This document shows positions 2,094 through 11,710 of a stretch of 35,017 nt of DNA, piece after piece (position 1 is the first letter of the stretch; every line of letters starts with the position of its first letter). Source of the DNA: an uncultured Prevotellaceae bacterium (GTDB taxonomy: Bacteria > Bacteroidota > Bacteroidia > Bacteroidales > Muribaculaceae); assembly GCA_946186575.1 (NCBI GenBank), contig CAMHNO010000002.1, positions 150,664-185,680 on the forward strand, given 5' to 3'. The position numbers and the translations under genes were made by a program. The notes below the pieces were generated by a model, which made no database searches, was not told the origin of the DNA, and was given only the letters and a program-made list of their open reading frames with translations.

Positions 2094-2167
2094 GGTCCCA
2101 TAGCTCAGTTGGTTAGAGCACCTGACTCATAATCAGGGAGTCCTTGGTTCAAGCCCAAGTGGGACCA
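2094..2167 (+). tRNA. tRNA with anticodon CAU (tRNA-Ile2 or tRNA-Met)
   Basis: A full cloverleaf can be drawn. The acceptor GGTCCCA pairs with TGGGACC, followed by discriminator A2167. The D-arm contains AGCTCAGTTGGTTAGAGC. The anticodon stem CCTGA/TCAGG encloses CTCATAA, and the T-stem CTTGG/CCAAG encloses TTCAAGC. The anticodon is CAT and CCA is not encoded. The anticodon-arm core CTGACTCATAATCAG resembles lysidine-modified tRNA-Ile2 rather than initiator tRNA, but sequence alone does not settle Ile2 against elongator Met. Its 3' half is the attachment site of the element to the right. Confidence 0.92.
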
Positions 2168-2170
2168 CAA
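2155..2170 (+). repeat. Left attachment repeat (attL core), inside the tRNA 3' end
   Basis: CCAAGTGGGACCACAA is identical to 8815-8830. It covers the 3' strand of the T-stem and the acceptor stem of the CAU tRNA plus three bases, so integration rebuilds an intact tRNA at the left end. Confidence 0.9.
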
Positions 2171-2172
2171 CT

Positions 2173-2207
2173 AATCGCTGACTATCAATTAGTTGGCGAT
2201 TTTTTTG
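2173..2207 (+). terminator. Intrinsic terminator after the CAU tRNA, carried by the element
   Basis: AATCGCTGACTA pairs with TAGTTGGCGATT (two G-T wobbles) around a 5-base loop, and a run of seven Ts follows at once. It lies just inside the left attachment repeat, so the tRNA now uses a terminator supplied by the element. Confidence 0.75.
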
Positions 2208-2211
2208 TTTG

Positions 2212-2237
2212 TTTTTGACGTGATTTTGACGTGATAA
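2212..2237 (+). repeat. Left copy of 26-bp direct repeat (two 11-bp units TTTTGACGTGA)
   Basis: Two head-to-tail copies of TTTTGACGTGA at 2213-2234 with short flanks are identical to 8653-8678 near the other end. Their position close to both attachment repeats, and their period of about one helical turn, suggest integrase arm-type binding sites (inference). Confidence 0.75.
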
Positions 2238-2301
2238 GCAGCCGCAAAGTTGTCTTTTCGATATTTGGAACACTTTTTATGACATTTGGAATATATGTAT
2301 T

Positions 2302-2391
2302 GTGGTGGTCAACTGGTCATAATTCTACGGACTGACCACCTTGACCACCTTGACCACCTTGACCACCTTGACCACCTTGACCACCTTGACC
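2302..2391 (+). repeat. GGTCA-type iteron array with six tandem 9-bp units
   Basis: A GTGGTGGTCAACTGGTCATAA block is followed by CGGACTGACCACC (2328-2340). Five exact TTGACCACC units (2341-2385) and a final TTGACC follow. The block 2328-2346 recurs as a perfect 19-bp inverted copy at 7224-7242, where only one unit is present. It does not code for protein. Candidate roles are a replication origin with iterons or a packaging recognition site; neither is shown by sequence alone. Confidence 0.85.
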
Positions 2392-2460
2392 GCTCTTTGC
2401 TTATGAGTTCAAGCAGGTCACACCTCTAAAGTCTTGACCATTGACCACCCACAAAAAATA

Positions 2461-2493
2461 GAGCGTCACTAGGTATCGCACCCAATAACGCTC
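2461..2493. other. Non-coding left-end segment with a small inverted repeat
   Basis: In the gene-free stretch 2171-2557, GAGCGT (2461-2466) and ACGCTC (2488-2493) can pair around 21 bases. A further TTGACC...TGACCACC cluster lies at about 2434-2450. I see no gene in the stretch; it holds the repeats listed separately and an outward-facing promoter. Confidence 0.4.
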
Positions 2494-2495
2494 AA

Positions 2496-2514
2496 GTAAC
2501 ATTTAAAATTATTG
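2496..2514. repeat. Left arm of a 19-bp inverted repeat shared by both element ends
   Basis: GTAACATTTAAAATTATTG here is the exact reverse complement of 8597-8615, just upstream of the integrase start. Beside each arm lies an imperfect 24-bp direct repeat (2533-2556 and 8619-8642; two mismatches, core GTAGTCATTATT). Confidence 0.8.
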
Positions 2515-2533
2515 CTTGTGCAACAATTCGCCA

Positions 2534-2565
2534 CAAAGGTAGTCATTATTATTGACTCTAACAAA
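2534..2565 (-). promoter_or_regulatory. Outward-facing promoter at the left end of the element
   Basis: On the minus strand TTTG (2562-2565) is followed after 20 bases by TACCTTTG (2534-2541), a full match to the Bacteroidota promoter form. It overlaps the 3' end of the terminase gene and reads toward the left attachment site. No gene lies between it and the tRNA. After circularisation it would read across the joined attachment site toward the integrase gene. Confidence 0.55.
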
Positions 2566-3739
2566 TATGACCAATTCTTGCCCTCGGCACACTCATATTG
2601 CGCCTTGTAATGAGGAATGTGGTCACTCCATATCGCAGGGCATCCAGTGAATGGTTGAATCTGTCCTGCGGCTCATTGATATAATTTCCGTTTGCATCCC
2701 TCTTCCATGAGTAGTTCCGCAATTCGTCAATTAATCCCAGAGAACTTTGTGTCGCATTGATTTGGTAAGCCTGCACCATGTTAACACCCGCGACTACTGA
2801 CCCGCGACCCTTGACGCAGGGCACTGCACGAAAACCACCGATATTATTTATTTCAGTGATACTCTTCTGTTCTGCGCTATCGCAGACAATATCTGCATTT
2901 CTTGCAACTCCCGCGCTCCGCAAAACCTCGACAATATCACGGTTGAGCATTCCTCGACGGTAAGCCAACTCCTGCACCCACAGCTCACCACCGCTCAAGC
3001 GCACTCGCAAGATGGCGGTTGGGTCATTCGTGAATCCGAAGTCGATACAATAAAATTCACGCTTGAATTGCTGCGGCATATTGTCGACGGTGCTCCACTT
3101 GGTATAGATAAGACCCTCAACGCTGCCAGTCCTGCCCTCTCCGTATACCGTCCACCAATTAGGGTCGGTATCTTTGTAGGACAGAATAGCCTGCCGCTGC
3201 CGCTCACTTAAGTAAGGATTATCCTTGAATGTCGAGTGGATGAGTGCCACGTCTGGTTTGCCCAAAATATTATCATCTACCCAGAATCTGCTGCGAGGAT
3301 TGTAGTCGAGGAAGATAGTCCCTCTAGTCCTCACTTCCAGTTGTCGGTAAATTTCAAAGTCCACAAAGTAGCACTCATTAATGAAGAGAATGTCCCTCGC
3401 GCTGCCATGCACTTTGCCCTCGTTGTCGGCACTGAAAAACTCTATCTTACTGCCATTGTCGAAGGTGTAAACCATATCGGTTGCATTCCATTTGTCCGCA
3501 TTCCATGCGCCACCAAACATAGAGCGGAAGTCACGAATAACACCACGCTTGAGGAAGGGCATAGTTTCGCCCACAATGCTAATCAAGATACCTGCTCTTA
3601 ACTGTGCCAGTGTTGCGCATAACTGGAGCAGAGACCAAGTCTTGCCGCTGCGAGTGCCGCCCTTGTTCACAATAATGTGGCTGCCACTATCGAGCGCAGC
3701 CACATTCATGTTGAATACATTGCTAACTTGCCAGTCCAT
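2558..3739 (-). CDS. terL: Phage terminase large subunit (ATPase and nuclease)
   Basis: With the start at ATG 3739 (MDWQVSNVF) the protein has 393 residues. The N-terminal packaging ATPase has Walker A GGTRSGKT at 27-34 and a Walker B-like strand ILFINE at 117-122. The C-terminal RNase H-like nuclease keeps its acidic triad: D233 in CIDFGFTNDPTA, D287 in IVCDSAEQ and D366 in DRFNHSLDALRYG. Both domains look intact, so the gene does not look decayed. An earlier in-frame start at 3820 lies wholly inside the upstream gene and is less likely; the chosen ATG overlaps that gene by 17 bases and follows a GAGAGACGGAC stretch. It should cut and package DNA into a procapsid, but no capsid or portal gene is in the element. 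Confidence 0.92.
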   Translation of the reverse strand: MDWQVSNVFNMNVAALDSGSHIIVNKGGTRSGKTWSLLQLCATLAQLRAGILISIVGETMPFLKRGVIRDFRSMFGGAWNADKWNATDMVYTFDNGSKIEFFSADNEGKVHGSARDILFINECYFVDFEIYRQLEVRTRGTIFLDYNPRSRFWVDDNILGKPDVALIHSTFKDNPYLSERQRQAILSYKDTDPNWWTVYGEGRTGSVEGLIYTKWSTVDNMPQQFKREFYCIDFGFTNDPTAILRVRLSGGELWVQELAYRRGMLNRDIVEVLRSAGVARNADIVCDSAEQKSITEINNIGGFRAVPCVKGRGSVVAGVNMVQAYQINATQSSLGLIDELRNYSWKRDANGNYINEPQDRFNHSLDALRYGVTTFLITRRNMSVPRARIGHIC

Positions 3740-4049
3740 TAAGTCCGTCTCTCTTAATCCTTTCAAGTGTTGCGACACTCTCGGATGATAAATTAGCAAT
3801 AACAATCTGCTCACGCTCATCTGTCACATCTGCCTTGACCGCTTGCTGCTTGGGGATGATGTAACCGATAAGGTTGGCAATAGCCTTGACTCTGTCCTGC
3901 GGCTCAAGTGAGTCTAGGTCTTCTTGCAGACGCTCGATATTGTCCTCAACAATCGAAGTGAGCGCATCAAGTAACCTGCTCTTGATTTTGTTCTTTGCTC
4001 CCTTTGGTCTTCCTTGTGGATTACCACTTTGTCCTTTAGAGTACTTCAT
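3723..4049 (-). CDS. DUF5681-type protein, probable small terminase subunit
   Basis: The 108-residue protein opens with KGQSGNPQGRPKGAKN, the basic glycine-rich signature of DUF5681. That domain is found at the N-terminus of many phage small-terminase-like proteins. An alpha-helical middle (about 25-65) follows. It lies immediately upstream of the large terminase and overlaps it by 17 bases, the usual place for the DNA-recognising terminase subunit. Its ATG overlaps the stop of the preceding gene as ATGA (4046-4049), so translation is probably coupled. In satellites of the SaPI type the small subunit diverts packaging to the satellite; that role is an inference here. Confidence 0.75.
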   Translation of the reverse strand: MKYSKGQSGNPQGRPKGAKNKIKSRLLDALTSIVEDNIERLQEDLDSLEPQDRVKAIANLIGYIIPKQQAVKADVTDEREQIVIANLSSESVATLERIKRDGLNGLAS

Positions 4050-4618
4050 TTCTGTAAATCTCCAGTTTTTAACAGACTTGCGTCCATTCGTTTGTAAAAA
4101 TCTAAATCGTCATATCCCATGAAGAGACTTGCGGTCTCAAATGGTAAAGTTACAATGCTTGCGAGGTCGGAATCCTCTTTGATAACCTTTGGGCAAAACC
4201 TATGTGCGAGGAAGAGTCCGTCATGCACATAAGCAACATTACCAAGGATTACTCGATTTTCGCTCACGCAATCACACCATTGCTCATATTGTCCTGCGGT
4301 TGCATAGAAGTAACAGTCTCGATTGTCCAGTGCTAGGACGTGTGTCTCATTCAACTTATTCGCACCAGTTGCCACCCATATTGGCACTTCTGCTCCCTTG
4401 AAAGGTTGCAAATAACCCATAGCGCATAACACTGCGGTAGTTTGACTGGAGACGATTGCAACTGCCTTATTGGGATTCGTTTTCATGAGCGTCTCTCCTA
4501 GCAGAACTTGGTCGGTTCTTGCAGAGCGCAGGTATTCATCCACCACCGAATCAATATAAGCGGTGTTGTTGGCTCGAGCCAAAAGTCGAATCAAATTCTT
4601 GCTAATCGATGTCTTCAT
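4046..4618 (-). CDS. Toprim/DUF6371-like protein with lost catalytic residues
   Basis: The 190 residues resemble the C-terminal Toprim part of the DUF6371/PG0870-type primase-related proteins common on Bacteroidales elements. GETLMKTNPNKAVAIVSSQTTAVLCA (41-66, quoted in two parts: GETLMKTNPNKA and VAIVSSQTTAVLCA) aligns by eye with the family pattern GEhLL..P.kpVAlVESEKTAii. IWVATGANKL (80-89) matches the WlAtGG..nL segment, and YATAGQYEQW (105-114) matches YPDkgayekW. The catalytic Glu of VESEK is Ser here and the PD acid is replaced by AT, so primase chemistry is doubtful. The N-terminal zinc finger and middle of the family are absent. It overlaps the ATPase by 17 bases and the small terminase by 4. 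Assignment is from remembered motifs. Confidence 0.55.
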   Translation of the reverse strand: MKTSISKNLIRLLARANNTAYIDSVVDEYLRSARTDQVLLGETLMKTNPNKAVAIVSSQTTAVLCAMGYLQPFKGAEVPIWVATGANKLNETHVLALDNRDCYFYATAGQYEQWCDCVSENRVILGNVAYVHDGLFLAHRFCPKVIKEDSDLASIVTLPFETASLFMGYDDLDFYKRMDASLLKTGDLQK

Positions 4619-5663
4619 TTCGCATCCTCTTTTGATAGTTAACTACGGTGGACTTCGATATGCCTAACTCCTTAGCGATTTCACGCTGCGACCTGCCCTT
4701 GTTGGTAAGTTCACGCACATTCTCAACAAGCATCGCTCTAGTGTCTTCATCTATCGATTGGAGTAACTCGGATTCTGCTGCGGTGCGCACTGGTTCATGA
4801 TGCAGGAAGTTGCCACGTTCACCATGTGTCAACTCGCACACTAGCACATTGTCGGAGTCATACTTGAAACCTGCGGTTCTGCACTTGATTTGTTTGATAT
4901 AGCGCAATGCAGGGTCTTTAATGCTCTTGCCGATCGTTATCGCTGCATCAAGGAAATTTAGAATTTTCTTACTGCCGCTCAAGTCATTCTGCGTGATAGG
5001 TTGATTAAGATAGCGTTTAGGAGTGTGAGAGATGACAATCACTGTCAATCCATGCGCCCTCTTCATTTCGACAAGTTCTTGCATCAACAAGGCGGCTGCG
5101 TCTCCCTTTTCGGCATTGCTCTCTATCCAAGTGAGATTGTCGATGATAACCACACTTGCGCCTGAATCAGCACAAGCAGATTTGATGTCCGAAATAATAT
5201 CATCTCCAATTAAGGAGTATTGCTGCACATTGCATCGCAGGAAGTTTGGAGAAAACTCATAGTCTTCGGCATTGTCATTAGTGTAACGTGTGCGAAACTG
5301 CGCCTTACTCAATTCAAAATCCACATATAGAACAACTCTCCCCTTCCTTGCGATTTCGTCTGCAACTTGCACCGCTAGAATGCTCTTACCAGTTCCCGAA
5401 TCGCTAAAGATACAAGTGACTTCATTCTCGAAAATCATCCCGTCCCCCCACAAGGATTGTGGCGCAGGTTCAAGGCTTGCCGCCATTAGAACATCATTTG
5501 CAGGTGCATACTCCAGTGAGCCAACTTTGTTGAGGTAGTCTCCACTTTTGTATCGCTGCAACTGGTCAATATTATTGACGGATGCTTGCTCATTAGATAG
5601 ATTTTCACTACCTTTGTTCTGTTCTTGCTTGGGTGCATTTTGCGCCCTTTTTTCATCTGTCAT
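4602..5663 (-). CDS. RepA-like AAA ATPase (RecA/DnaB fold) with C-terminal HTH
   Basis: The 353-residue protein has Walker A SDSGTGKS at 87-94, an arginine-bearing VLYVDFELSKAQFRTRY stretch at 111-127, a Walker B strand VVIIDNLTWI at 171-180 and a sensor-like VIVISHTPKR. These place it with the RepA/AAA_25 hexameric ATPases used as replication helicases by plasmids, phages and Bacteroidales elements. The C-terminus holds a helix-turn-helix (GRSQREIAKELGISKSTVVNYQ). The first 70 residues are polar and probably disordered. Its ATG overlaps the stop of the HTH gene as ATGA (5660-5663). It probably unwinds or loads at the element's origin; the iteron-like repeats at 2302-2391 and 7208-7268 are candidate targets. 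Confidence 0.85.
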   Translation of the reverse strand: MTDEKRAQNAPKQEQNKGSENLSNEQASVNNIDQLQRYKSGDYLNKVGSLEYAPANDVLMAASLEPAPQSLWGDGMIFENEVTCIFSDSGTGKSILAVQVADEIARKGRVVLYVDFELSKAQFRTRYTNDNAEDYEFSPNFLRCNVQQYSLIGDDIISDIKSACADSGASVVIIDNLTWIESNAEKGDAAALLMQELVEMKRAHGLTVIVISHTPKRYLNQPITQNDLSGSKKILNFLDAAITIGKSIKDPALRYIKQIKCRTAGFKYDSDNVLVCELTHGERGNFLHHEPVRTAAESELLQSIDEDTRAMLVENVRELTNKGRSQREIAKELGISKSTVVNYQKRMRNEDID

Positions 5664-5986
5664 GGTGCAACTCCTTTATTGGCATTATCGCCCTCTAAAA
5701 TACGTTTAACATCGCTCATGCGGTAGCGACGCTTGCCACCTACGTTGAGCGGAACAAGATAACCTGCCTTTTGCCACCGATAAAGAGTGGCTGCGGACAC
5801 TTCGAGAATCTCCATGACCTTATCTCTGCTAGGATAGGTCTCTGCTTTTTGGTCTGCGATTCTCTGCTCCAGTCTGCGCTCGGTCTCATCGATGCAGAGA
5901 TTAATCCCCTCGACCAGTTCTGCCAATGAAATTATAACCTGCAAGTTAGGCAGTTCTTTTGCAAGTTGAACTAGATTATAGTTCAT
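5660..5986 (-). CDS. Excisionase/MerR-like helix-turn-helix DNA-binding protein
   Basis: The 108-residue protein has an alpha-helical N-terminal half and a winged HTH at about 50-95. It reads SRDKVMEILEVSAATLYRW, then the wing GGKRRYRMSDVKRIL, the pattern of HTH_17 excisionase or small MerR-like proteins found beside RepA-type genes on Bacteroidales integrative elements. It heads the replication-packaging operon, 138 bases downstream of the candidate promoter -7 box at 6124-6131, so it could be an excisionase, an operon regulator or an origin-binding protein. ATG 5986 is chosen; a possible 60-codon reading frame just upstream looks spurious. Confidence 0.82.
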   Translation of the reverse strand: MNYNLVQLAKELPNLQVIISLAELVEGINLCIDETERRLEQRIADQKAETYPSRDKVMEILEVSAATLYRWQKAGYLVPLNVGGKRRYRMSDVKRILEGDNANKGVAP

Positions 5987-6123
5987 TGTTGTTGTCGGAA
6001 TCTTGCTCGGTCTTTCGGTTCAAGACTGCTCATCCTCACTGGTCGCACACTCTGCGGCTCTCGGTGTGGCTCTCGGTCGCACCTCTGCTCCAGTCCACCC
6101 AGTCCGCTGAATGATTGACACCG

Positions 6124-6158
6124 CAAAGTTAGGTATGACCTTTCACAGACTCTCAAAA
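6124..6158 (-). promoter_or_regulatory. Promoter of the HTH-ATPase-Toprim-terminase operon
   Basis: The minus strand has TTTTG (6154-6158) and TAACTTTG (6124-6131), spaced 22 bases apart. The -7 box fits the Bacteroidota consensus well; the spacing is a little long. The leader to the HTH start would be about 130 bases. Confidence 0.55.
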
Positions 6159-6243
6159 CATACATTTCACAAAAAATAAGCCACTAATTAATAGTGACTT
6201 ATCATTAATCTACATACATTTGTATCATACAAAGAAGATACTT

Positions 6244-6933
6244 TTACAAGTAGCGGAATGTTTGGTTTATTATTTCGTTTGGTTCATAGCGTGATTTGCT
6301 AATATTTTTTGGTGGTTCAACTCCTACAATTTCAAAAAATAGTCTCATCCACTTTGCAAACTTCATTGTTTTCTTATTGAAATGCTCGCTGCGATGAATG
6401 CAAAGTGCAACCATCGCAAGTCCTTGTTTCGTTTTAATGGTTGGGATGTCTCTTATTAGGTATTCGTCAAAGTAGTTGAATCTATTTCCCTTGCCTATAC
6501 CTAAAAACGTTGGTTTAAAAAATGTTCTTAATTTCTCCCAGTCTATTCCAGTGCCAGTCTCTACCTCATCCTGCGTCGAGGTTGCGACTGCTTGCGGTGC
6601 AGGATGCTTAAAAGGCTCGAAATGCCCCTTTAAACGCTCAATATCGTACTTTTGTAGTGGTGTGGTGCAGTAGGTCTCCATGAGCGCAAACCACCTCTCT
6701 AAATGCTTGTAATCGATTGGCGCTTGGCGAAGGTAGTTGGTTAAACGTTCAACTTCGTTGCGAACACGTTTCAGCAAGAAGTTAATGTCATTCTCTTTGA
6801 GTACTGGAGTGCGCTCCGCTGCCACATAACGCATGATATAGTGGTGGAAAGCGAAACTTCCTACTATATGATTGCCGCTCTCAAGGTCTTTTACAATCTG
6901 CTCCACTAAAGGATAGTGTGTGTTCTTATCCAT
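6244..6933 (-). CDS. Hypothetical element protein
   Basis: From the ATG at 6933 (MDKNTHYPLVEQIV) it is 229 residues; an upstream in-frame start would overlap the preceding gene heavily. The N-terminal half is predicted helical and charged. The C-terminal half (TKQGLAMVALCIHRSEHFN, then KFAKWMRLFFEIVGV) resembles a C-terminal domain I have seen in unnamed proteins of Bacteroidales mobile elements, where a helical motif precedes an FxxWxxxFxxxxG pattern. No catalytic motif is visible and function is unknown. It overlaps the stop of the upstream small gene by 8 bases, so the two are likely translated together, and it lies just upstream of the operon promoter at 6124-6158. Confidence 0.75.
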   Translation of the reverse strand: MDKNTHYPLVEQIVKDLESGNHIVGSFAFHHYIMRYVAAERTPVLKENDINFLLKRVRNEVERLTNYLRQAPIDYKHLERWFALMETYCTTPLQKYDIERLKGHFEPFKHPAPQAVATSTQDEVETGTGIDWEKLRTFFKPTFLGIGKGNRFNYFDEYLIRDIPTIKTKQGLAMVALCIHRSEHFNKKTMKFAKWMRLFFEIVGVEPPKNISKSRYEPNEIINQTFRYL

Positions 6934-7165
6934 AGATGTTGTACTCTTGACAGATGTTAGTAGATATATCTTGGATGATGTTGGCATAACCTTGTAACCT
7001 GCCGCCATTGCGAGATGCAAAGAGCGCAGGATTACTTGACACTTGCATTAGTTGGTAGGCAGTGGATTCCAGTTGCTCCACAAGCCTTATAAGTTCCATA
7101 TTTGCCTTCTCTACGTCTCTTTGAGTTGGCTTGGGTGGTTGGTAGTGTATAACTATATCGTCCAT
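6926..7165 (-). CDS. Small helical hypothetical protein of the element
   Basis: The ATG at 7165 (MDDIVIHYQPPKPTQRDV) gives 79 residues; a GTG at 7213 would add 16. It is mostly helical (RDVEKANMELIRLVEQLEST) with a glycine-rich RNGGRLQGYAN stretch near residue 55. I do not recognise the family. It lies between the inverted-repeat module at 7208-7268 and the 229-residue gene, which it overlaps by 8 bases. The overlap and the conserved gene order on one strand argue that it is real. Confidence 0.65.
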   Translation of the reverse strand: MDDIVIHYQPPKPTQRDVEKANMELIRLVEQLESTAYQLMQVSSNPALFASRNGGRLQGYANIIQDISTNICQEYNIYG

Positions 7166-7207
7166 TATATGCGATTTTTGAGTGGTTATTATATGTTTGG
7201 TTGCGTT

Positions 7208-7268
7208 GGTCACTGGTCATAGCGGTCAAGGTGGTCAGTCCGTTTATGACTTGACCACTTGACCAGTC
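7208..7268. repeat. Right GGTCA-type repeat module, inverted relative to the left array
   Basis: The segment contains GGTCAC, GGTCAT and, at 7224-7242, a 19-bp perfect reverse complement of 2328-2346 (CGGACTGACCACCTTGACC). TTGACCACTTGACCAG follows at 7251-7266. Both modules also share a nearby GTCATAA and a trailing ACCTTGACCGCT. The right copy has a single 9-bp unit where the left has six. It sits between the integrase stop and the small hypothetical gene. Confidence 0.8.
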
Positions 7269-7275
7269 CACTATA

Positions 7276-8592
7276 TTAAAATTCAAAACCTGCGAGCATC
7301 CTCTCTGCATTCTCTTCCTCACTGACCTTGATATAGGACAAAAATGCCTTTTCGGTCTTGTGACCAGTAATCTTCATAATCATTAGAGTGGGATAGCCAC
7401 GCTTATACATATTAGTCGCAAAACTGCGCCTTGCGGTGTGAGCAGTAACGCACTCCCATTTCTTGAAATGTTGCTCTGTCCTGCCGCCCTGCTCGGTGTG
7501 AGTGATAGACACATCTTCATTGAGTCCTGCAAGTTTAGCAACATCCTTCAAGAATCGGTTAAATGGTTGGTTGCTCATTGGCGCAGGTACATTGTAGTTG
7601 TGCTTGTCGAGGATGGCTTGCGCAGGTGGCAGGATAGGAATAACAACCCTGCTAGCAGTCTTTTTCTGCTCAAACTTGAAACACCGACCGCCATTGTTCA
7701 TTGTGTGGATGTTGTTCTTATTCAACTTGGGAAGGTCGCTATACCTGCATCCAGTCCACGCAAGCAGCAAGAACTGGTCACGCACTTTGTCGAGGTATGG
7801 TGTTGCTATCTCAAGGGATGCAATGTTGTTGAGTTCATCCTCGGTCAAGTAGATGTTATCGACTTCCTCTGTGAGTTTTGCGCACTTTTTAGGCTCAATA
7901 AACTCGCAGTTGACACGCTGCTCCATAGGAAGAGCGTTAATGGCTGCTTTGAGGTTCTTAATATGCTTGCCTACGGTGTTCAACTTGTAACCTTCGGCAT
8001 ACATGAACTGCACGAATGATTTGTAAAAATTCTCGTCAACACTGGTAATCTCAAGGTCATCTAATTGGTTCTGCTCAAGGTAGCGCACCAATATATTATG
8101 CATCTGCTTGTATTGTGTCACAGTGCGATTGTCGACTGGTTTTTGAGTCTTCTTGACTGTCCTTGTGCCATTCTTTGCAGATTCAATAAGACTGGAGACC
8201 GTTTGCAGCAATGTTGTTACTTGTGGCTCTTCCTGCTCCACTTGTTGAGCTGGGAAGTTGAAGTCATGAACCAAAGTCTTTAACCAATTAACATCATCCT
8301 TGATAGCTTGCTTATCTGCTTTGTCAACGGATGAAGACACATGGTTCTTGATTTTCTCAAGTTTCATGGACTTTTCTTGCAAGGCAGTTTTCAGCTGCTT
8401 ACGCTCATCTGTGAGCATTCTCCAGTTTGGAATATCTATTGACTGGTTTCTGCTATCCCAGTACTCGGACTGAACAAAAACGTTGGTTTTCGCTCTTCTA
8501 GTGGTGCTGCCTATCGTTAGGCGCATCATGACTTCTTGTTGCTTTGTTGCTTTGTCGGATTTAGACGATAATGTTAGTGTGATTGTTGCCAT
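7276..8592 (-). CDS. int: Tyrosine recombinase (element integrase)
   Basis: The 438-residue protein has the three-part layout of Bacteroidota site-specific integrases: an N-terminal arm-binding domain (about 1-115), a SAM-like core-binding domain (about 125-225) and a catalytic domain (about 245-438). The catalytic set is complete: R283 in TGCRYSDL, K311 in KKTASRVV, H385 and R388 in HTARRSF, H411 in ITGHKT and Y420 in LSYIKV. It lies 220 bases from the right attachment repeat and reads inward. The 26-bp repeats near both ends are candidate arm sites for its N-terminal domain. It should catalyse integration into and excision from the tRNA 3' end. Confidence 0.95.
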   Translation of the reverse strand: MATITLTLSSKSDKATKQQEVMMRLTIGSTTRRAKTNVFVQSEYWDSRNQSIDIPNWRMLTDERKQLKTALQEKSMKLEKIKNHVSSSVDKADKQAIKDDVNWLKTLVHDFNFPAQQVEQEEPQVTTLLQTVSSLIESAKNGTRTVKKTQKPVDNRTVTQYKQMHNILVRYLEQNQLDDLEITSVDENFYKSFVQFMYAEGYKLNTVGKHIKNLKAAINALPMEQRVNCEFIEPKKCAKLTEEVDNIYLTEDELNNIASLEIATPYLDKVRDQFLLLAWTGCRYSDLPKLNKNNIHTMNNGGRCFKFEQKKTASRVVIPILPPAQAILDKHNYNVPAPMSNQPFNRFLKDVAKLAGLNEDVSITHTEQGGRTEQHFKKWECVTAHTARRSFATNMYKRGYPTLMIMKITGHKTEKAFLSYIKVSEEENAERMLAGFEF

Positions 8593-8596
8593 ATCT

Positions 8597-8615
8597 CAAT
8601 AATTTTAAATGTTAC
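8597..8615. repeat. Right arm of the 19-bp inverted repeat
   Basis: Exact reverse complement of 2496-2514, located 5-23 bases upstream of the integrase ATG, so a protein binding here could also control integrase expression. Confidence 0.8.
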
Positions 8616-8619
8616 GGTA

Positions 8620-8627
8620 CAAAAGTA
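8620..8627 (-). promoter_or_regulatory. Candidate -7 box of the integrase gene
   Basis: TACTTTTG on the minus strand fits TAnnTTTG and lies 28 bases upstream of the integrase ATG. I see no -33 TTTG at the right distance, in contrast to the related left-end promoter at 2534-2565, so this copy may be weak or regulated. Confidence 0.45.
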
Positions 8628-8652
8628 GTCATTATTTTTGACATATGAAATA

Positions 8653-8678
8653 TTTTTGACGTGATTTTGACGTGATAA
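8653..8678 (+). repeat. Right copy of 26-bp direct repeat (two TTTTGACGTGA units)
   Basis: Identical to 2212-2237 and in the same orientation. A further TGACGTG follows at 8680-8686. Probable integrase arm-type sites. Confidence 0.75.
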
Positions 8679-8814
8679 ATGACGTGTTATGATTTCTTGT
8701 GATTTTTCTTGATTAAATTTTGGTAGTTCTAAATGATTGATTATCTTTGCAGTCGAATTACAACCGCCTTATATTAGGGATTGGCGAAAATGACCCACTA
8801 TCACTGCAAGCAGT

Positions 8815-8830
8815 CCAAGTGGGACCACAA
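8815..8830 (+). repeat. Right attachment repeat (attR core)
   Basis: Identical 16 bp to 2155-2170. Only the last part of the tRNA is present here (no D-arm, no anticodon arm), so it is a target-site remnant and not a second tRNA. Confidence 0.9.
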
Positions 8831-10987: not shown

Positions 10988-11710
10988 ATGAAAAAGTTAT
11001 TAATCTTTTTAATGATTGCCGCAATGGGCGTGGCAGCTGGGGCTCAAAACAGCTACATTCCCTACAAGACCTACGACGGCGAGCACAAGAACGAAATTTC
11101 GGGCTATGTGATGGGTGGTAACAATGTTGTTACCGACAAGTTTGGAGGACTTGCGGTTTCTTACACGCGTCACCTCACTCCACGTTGGCATGTGGGCGGC
11201 GATGCCCAAATGCAGTTTGGTAAGGAATTGTTCTCAGTTGACGTACAAGGCGGTTATCGCTTGCCATTGAAGTATGGCAACATCTCGTTCGACGGCAAAA
11301 TCATGTACAACTTTTACCACAAGTTCGGATTCCACGAGATGTCCTACAACATCTCGGCAACATGGGAGAGCGCCTACGTCGACATGCGACTGGGCGAGAC
11401 ACTCGTGCACTACCACAGCCACGTGTGGGGCACTGGATGGGGCTACACCGAGACTCCACTGCTCACATTCGGCTTCGGCGTGAACATCCGTCACCGCAAC
11501 AACCCCTGGAACCTGGGACTCTTCTTCCGCAACTACGACGATTTCTACTACGAGAACTGGAATATCAACTGGGGCATCCGATGGTATGCCAAGGTCAAGA
11601 AGCGCTGGAACCTCTTCGGCGAGTTCAACATTCGCCCGGCAGGCTCCTTGAGCCAGCTGGCCAGCAAATATGAGGGTTCGGTAAAAGTAGGTTTAAAATA
11701 TAAATGGTAA
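10988..11710 (+). CDS. Outer-membrane beta-barrel protein
   Basis: The ATG at 10988 (MKKLLIFLMIAAMGVAAGAQ) gives 240 residues with a clear signal peptide; a TTG three codons earlier is unlikely. The mature part is a series of short amphipathic strands rich in Tyr, Trp and Gly (GLAVSYTRHLTPRWHVGGDA, FGFGVNIRHRN, LGLFFRNY, INWGIRWYAKV). The last residues VKVGLKYKW end in an aromatic residue, as barrel proteins inserted by BAM do. No ligand or enzyme motif is visible. Its place between a PAP2 phosphatase and a lipoprotein phosphoesterase suggests a shared surface function, but I cannot name it. Confidence 0.78.
   Translation: MKKLLIFLMIAAMGVAAGAQNSYIPYKTYDGEHKNEISGYVMGGNNVVTDKFGGLAVSYTRHLTPRWHVGGDAQMQFGKELFSVDVQGGYRLPLKYGNISFDGKIMYNFYHKFGFHEMSYNISATWESAYVDMRLGETLVHYHSHVWGTGWGYTETPLLTFGFGVNIRHRNNPWNLGLFFRNYDDFYYENWNINWGIRWYAKVKKRWNLFGEFNIRPAGSLSQLASKYEGSVKVGLKYKW

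Follow-up and report, generated by a model that had tools for sequence, protein, structure and literature searches.

Phage satellites are described in several forms (statements on them here refer to the available portions of the cited papers). Phage-inducible chromosomal islands (PICIs), including the Staphylococcus aureus pathogenicity islands (SaPIs) and the PICIs of Gram-negative bacteria, are integrated elements with an integrase, a regulator, a replication module and sometimes a packaging-specificity gene, and without a virion set; some encode the small terminase TerS (PMC6092414). The element described here lies in a stretch of 35,017 nt (the window) from an uncultured Prevotellaceae bacterium (assembly GCA_946186575.1, contig CAMHNO010000002.1). 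It shares this organisation, but it encodes a large terminase (TerL) with a DUF5681 protein and resides in Bacteroidota, whereas PICIs and SaPIs are described with terS or a cos site (PMC6092414); the term 'terL' has 0 occurrences in the available main text of that paper. Capsid-forming PICIs (cf-PICIs) likewise encode both terminase subunits, but add capsid, protease, portal and connector genes, none of which was recognised in the window element (PMC10690885). MulchRoom and MiniFlayer also carry small and large terminase genes, but add portal and major capsid genes (PMC10690885). The phage-inducible chromosomal minimalist islands (PICMIs) of Vibrio resemble the element in minimal size (6,110 bp for PICMI115) and in having no capsid-remodelling genes; they are packaged as concatemers in full-size particles with headful-like ends (PMC10803314). 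PICMI115 is described without packaging-redirecting homologs such as terS, whereas the window element has TerL (PMC10803314), and PICMIs insert next to fis, not at tRNA-Met. In titles and abstract starts of the open-access literature, no terminase-encoding phage satellite of Bacteroidota was recognised. We propose, with a probability of about 0.72, that the element belongs to the phage satellites as a minimal form, which encodes a terminase but no capsid and fills the heads of a helper phage.

The insert of 6,660 bp is bounded by two copies of the tRNA-Met 3' end with a repeat match of 18/19 nt, and the attachment repeats that an earlier note on this DNA had placed in a tRNA were thus confirmed. 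An integrase and attachment sites without a full virion set, the general mark of a phage satellite, are present. The element genes are all on the minus strand.

2094-2168, tRNA-Met(cat), intact, hosting attachment copy 1 at its 3' end
2152..2170, plus strand, attachment copy 1, the tRNA-Met(cat) 3' end (repeat search; empty site)
2558..3739, minus strand, TerL, 393 aa, reading frame open from 3820 (family match, alignment)
3723..4049, minus strand, DUF5681 protein, candidate small terminase or packaging-specificity protein (family match)
4046..4618, minus strand, DUF6371 protein, 190 aa (family match)
4602..5663, minus strand, AAA_25 ATPase with C-terminal helix-turn-helix (HTH), putative replication role (family match)
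5660..5986, minus strand, HTH_17, excisionase-like protein (family match)
6244..7020, minus strand, p258, start uncertain, homologous to p219 of a sister element (E 2e-20), without family match
6926..7213, minus strand, p95, open reading frame of unassigned function, without family match
7276..8592, minus strand, tyrosine integrase (int), 438 aa (family match)
8812..8830, plus strand, attachment copy 2, 18/19 nt (repeat search)

An empty site was found in a congener (genome G279, locus L125), in which the upstream gene, tRNA-Met and a PAP2 gene are contiguous without the element. The two loci are identical at 108/108 nt as far as the tRNA end and divergent beyond; thus, 6,660 bp were inserted at tRNA-Met. 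The PAP2 gene is present in 86 of the 101 genus genomes, and 30 PAP2 loci, each extended upstream by about 1.5 kb, were inspected. Besides the window, L125 alone was syntenic; L118 lacked the upstream gene but had tRNA-Met, which was absent from the other 27.

Family matches bore out the complete integrase and the HTH protein named in the earlier note. Its 'RepA-like' protein is an ATPase as claimed, but the label gives way to AAA_25 plus a C-terminal HTH, and its 'Toprim-like' protein is DUF6371. Its gene inventory held for int, HTH, ATPase, DUF5681 and TerL, and lacked p95, p258 and two noncoding features described below, an RNA gene and a set of 9-bp iterons. A PICI is marked by an stl/rpr or alpA/merR-type regulator together with pri/rep and int in PICI order; here, next to AAA_25, the HTH_17 protein also had a weaker MerR_1 match in this general family scan, which used models other than PICI-specific ones. 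Again as the note had it, none of the 8 element proteins scanned matched a family of portal, capsid, tail or lysis proteins, and there was no capsid, portal or protease of its own of the cf-PICI kind; a virion role for p95 or p258 may exist, since these match no family. Defence models gave weak ATPase matches and nothing else with these proteins.

The window TerL matches Terminase_3 and Terminase_3C. Its GGTRSGKT and ILFINE motifs are presumably Walker A and Walker B, as read from the sequence, and its three acidic nuclease positions (IDFGF, CDSAE, HSLDALRYG) align with those of 2wbn and 5oe8 in a 17-row TerL profile. The predicted protein has the Walker A/B motifs and three acidic nuclease residues expected of a large terminase. 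The intact ATPase and nuclease residues reported earlier therefore stand, while the start is probably 3739 and not 3820, because TerL of the sister element L020 begins at the same residue and the 17-nt overlap of TerL with DUF5681 is the same in both. This start would also explain an in-frame stop seen with the longer N-terminus in genome G241. The window and L020 TerL proteins are 79% identical with pN/pS of 0.18 over 391 codons, at saturated synonymous sites, and TerL looks to be under constraint. The structure model of DUF5681 (mean pLDDT, predicted local distance difference test, of 67) has confident helices at 21-64 plus a C-terminal helix.

Elements of one plan were found in 3/101 genus genomes, at three different tRNAs. 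The L020 element (RUG354), at tRNA-Leu, carries int, p128, p219, HTH, DUF3987, a Zn-ribbon plus DUF6371 protein, DUF5681 and TerL; it measures 7,630 bp between 13-nt direct repeats at 3813 and 11443, has host-type genes on both sides, and its contig has a counterpart of equal length and gene content in G241. The L028 element (G249), at tRNA-Arg, carries int, p241, HTH, DUF3987, a BT4734/PriCT_2 protein, DUF5681, TerL and p90; it spans 7,427 bp between repeats with a 14-nt exact core inside a longer repeat, and lies between SecDF and rubrerythrin. No virion genes were recognised in either. The end cassette DUF5681-TerL-tRNA is constant across the three elements and the replication modules vary. 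The same plan at tRNAs without capsid genes, which the earlier note had proposed to look for, thus exists in both, with different replication genes. The window element is genuine, has been mobile over evolutionary time and belongs to a set. TerL was matched at E<=1e-30 in 4/101 genus genomes, three of them with these elements. In the fourth (G254, L029 7019-9139), TerL is 706 aa long, with its first nuclease motif followed by an intein-like insert, and a long series of genes lies behind TerL.

The likeliest interpretation is that the element is packaged into capsids of a helper. Upon phage infection or induction, the HTH protein and integrase would excise the element, and the AAA/DUF6371 module, perhaps acting at the iterons, would replicate it to concatemers. 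Its own terminase would then take over, with DUF5681 recognising the DNA and TerL serving as motor and nuclease; it would dock on the portal of helper procapsids and fill them, probably with headful cutting. Heads, tails and lysis would be supplied by the helper.

The wider relatives of TerL were surveyed. Matches at E<=1e-35 occurred in 18/393 genomes of the order and 9/397 of the family. Twenty further TerL regions were read, including two from contigs about 5-6 kb long, with region G790:C147 left out. Reference genes were taken from the TerL surroundings of L115, BU183P1 and PM116P4 and are mostly 'hypothetical' in the records. As far as these genes label, 0/20 regions combined int, DUF5681 and TerL with a tRNA immediately after TerL, and 12/20 had a neighbour matching the TerL-surrounding genes of the reference phages. 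In the contigs L015 and L016, TerL was the sole match to reference genes. DUF5681 stands directly upstream of TerL in 4/20 (L183 and L184 are near identical, and L190 and L191 come from one genome). L183, the one scanned of these four, had portal, scaffold-like and weak tape-measure matches. When 78 further TerL contigs (80 minus L034 and L035) were searched for element genes, DUF5681 was hit in the IMG/VR contigs L095 and L107, where it likewise adjoins TerL. DUF5681-TerL is therefore also a phage pair, in support, not proof, of a small-terminase role for DUF5681.

Six metagenomic phage contigs (L014, L034, L035, L114, L115, L116) have TerL followed by the same late-gene run. Their TerLs are 62-70% identical to the window TerL, except that of L116, which is 63% identical to P0081. 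L115, a 33.7-kb contig of which about half was examined, encodes a head protease, a tape measure and, behind the protease, a phrog_38780 protein. No match to phage records was obtained with the whole element by blastn. A tree was built from 65 of the 120 listed TerL proteins, short contigs accounting for most of those omitted. In this tree, the TerLs of the window and of L020 fall in one clade (support 0.86) with metagenome proteins. It is sister (0.68) to a clade with longer contigs of 9.8-10.7 kb, and long phage contigs lie outside. The L028 TerL, 40% identical to that of the window, is remote in the tree; the terminase was therefore acquired at least twice or diverged long ago.

Contig sizes were compared among the best 120 of 7347 (TerL), 120 of 129 (int) and 120 of 135 (DUF5681) protein matches. 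For the first 69 of the best 120 TerL matches, the longest contigs included 11 of 7.6-8.1 kb, against 2 of 5.3-7.5 kb and 3 of 8.1-10.3 kb, the L020 element measuring 7.63 kb; at ranks 70-96, 8/27 had longest contigs of 9.8-10.7 kb. Window-type DUF5681 (86-97% identical) formed 9 clusters besides the window's own among the matches listed. Three of these 9 had contigs of 6,713, 6,738 and 6,742 bp, as against 6,660 bp for the window element; others had 7.7, 28.0 and 37.4 kb. Fifteen exact sizes are common to the TerL matches and the first 68 DUF5681 matches, a number reached by 0/5000 jittered lists; five are common to the int and TerL matches listed, a number that 53/5000 jittered lists also reached. 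Such element-sized contigs are suggestive, not proof, of circles or packaged concatemers. The TerLs P0070-P0096 (9.8-10.7 kb) and a related DUF5681, P0308 (10,254-bp contig), possibly represent a larger satellite type.

Several observations weigh against packaging into a helper's heads. The agreement in contig size between the int and TerL matches is only moderately beyond chance; assembly breaks at the attachment sites in mixed strains could possibly yield element-sized contigs; and longest contigs of 7-8 kb are likewise seen for P0097 and P0119, which lie among the phage TerLs in the tree. The PHROGs matched by DUF5681 belong to the function-unknown class, its role being putative, and no DUF5681 match precedes TerL in the six phage relatives. 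Neither particles nor a helper were seen, and neither was a pac or cos site or a capsid-size gene. A noncoding packaging motif common to the element and phage relatives was not found beyond 13-17-nt matches (E 0.13-0.39), and no element was recovered when IMG/VR was scanned with int, the sister-clade DUF5681 P0308, the two-row TerL and DUF5681 alignments, or the RNA motif described below. PF05065 was not matched in the element's own genome, and helper-type phrog_38780 in 0/101 genus genomes (its control matched in 1/14 named genomes); a resident prophage helper is thus not supported. The true helper's capsid may come from another family than those searched, and a virulent phage is a possible helper, because the genus genomes yielded no capsid gene of the helper type.

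Three other explanations were considered. The element could be mobilized by conjugation, its terminase being a decoy or an anti-phage weapon. The AAA protein does resemble ATPases (40-42% identity) encoded by 8 plasmids from Bacteroides, Phocaeicola and Butyricimonas; in one of these plasmids, the ATPase gene is immediately preceded by an excisionase-family gene. However, no relaxase or mobilization family was matched among the 8 element proteins scanned, the TerL nuclease and ATPase motifs are kept, and the DUF5681 partner is kept in the same overlap, so that this origin appears unlikely. A plasmid-like integrative element, in which TerL resolves the element's own concatemers without packaging, would agree with the longest-contig sizes, which would fit a free circle, and with no helper being known. 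To our knowledge, known TerL proteins act with a portal, and the DUF5681-TerL pair also occurs in a phage with a portal match; we regard this explanation as very improbable. Decay of a prophage, with loss of the virion genes and retention of those for integrase, replication and terminase, is largely refuted: more distant TerL relatives, outside the genus, lie mostly in phages or phage-like surroundings, but three elements of one plan occupy three tRNAs with different replication genes, the overlapping genes are intact, TerL is constrained and an empty site exists. The earlier note had likewise argued against random decay unless the closest relatives proved to be full prophages; that comparison was made and they did not, two sister elements being found at other tRNAs. 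A unique deletion of one prophage is ruled out by these sister elements, the empty site and the constrained TerL.

The satellites compared, as portrayed in the available portions of the papers, either borrow the helper's motor, redirected by TerS, an adaptor or a cos site, or encode a complete head. If packaging by its own terminase into a helper's heads is true, a motor without a head would be a third way for satellites, and the element would test how freely TerL docks on a foreign portal. Phage satellites would also extend to Prevotellaceae, common gut and rumen bacteria, for which none is described in the open-access literature searched. Whether there is a Bacteroidota class of such minimal satellites (6.7-7.6 kb, perhaps to 10.7), taking nothing but procapsids and tails, possibly from virulent phages, and with integrase curbed by an antisense RNA co-evolved with the int leader, is an evenly balanced question.

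The noncoding DNA of the element holds the following features.

2212..2237, no strand, 26-nt arm-type repeat TTTTTGACGTGATTTTGACGTGATAA, copy 1 (repeat search)
2333..2391, minus strand, iterons, six 9-bp units AGGTGGTCA (repeat search)
2453..2544, minus strand, putative antisense RNA gene: promoter-like TACCTTTG, hairpin, antisense 2496-2514, terminator-like hairpin 2493-2461 and T run
2542-2556, operator-like copy similar to GTCATTATTTTTGAC, at the RNA promoter (repeat search)
5565-5579, third operator-like copy (repeat search)
within 7214-7243, inverted AGGTGGTCA unit (repeat search)
8628..8642, no strand, operator-like GTCATTATTTTTGAC at the int promoter (repeat search)
8653..8678, no strand, arm-type repeat TTTTTGACGTGATTTTGACGTGATAA, copy 2, 100% (repeat search)

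The RNA gene (~85 nt) is structured, is common to the window and L020 (11271-11363 in the latter) and is sited behind TerL. A stretch of 25 nt, identical in the two, contains a TAnnTTTG box, which we take to be a Bacteroidetes -7 type promoter element; the hairpin, the antisense and the terminator-like hairpin follow. The window antisense is a 19-nt perfect complement of the int leader at 8597-8615, ending 4 nt before the ATG; that of L020 pairs over 14 nt (int leader 4026-4039, RNA 11306-11319). None of 2000 dinucleotide shuffles equalled 19 or 14 nt (longest 14 and 13), and the other 14 gene leaders are complementary to the RNA over <=8 nt. Two helix positions are changed on both strands between window and L020 (G-C to A-U and A-U to C-G, by eye); the complementarity has therefore been kept. 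The fold z-scores are -6.9 and -5.3. Rfam gave no match up to E 0.1 for region 2170-2560 and, at gathering score, tRNAs and nothing else in the window. The antisense was not found in L028 (7 nt; 1575/2000 shuffles at least as long). With <=3 mismatches the motif occurs in 2/101 genus genomes, those of the window and L020 elements, and its 21-nt core had no match in IMG/VR. Titles and abstract starts of the open-access literature yielded no recognised antisense RNA of a satellite integrase. The RNA is probably a brake on int: in the integrated state, this small RNA, transcribed next to the tRNA, would cover the int leader and hold integrase at a low level. The RNA gene would offer a directly testable switch for integration.

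The 26-nt repeats are candidate arm-type sites; the L020 element has a comparable pair near its two ends, with another sequence. The iterons may be an origin or packaging site. L020 has a short iterated motif, GGTTGTAG, in its noncoding gaps at 5389-5417, 8443-8534 and 11361-11375; the iterated motifs thus differ between the elements (AGGTGGTCA versus GGTTGTAG), and both are possible origin or packaging sites. A palindrome-like GTCA-N7-TGAC box occurs in three copies, two of them at the int and RNA gene promoters, and these boxes possibly form a shared operator.

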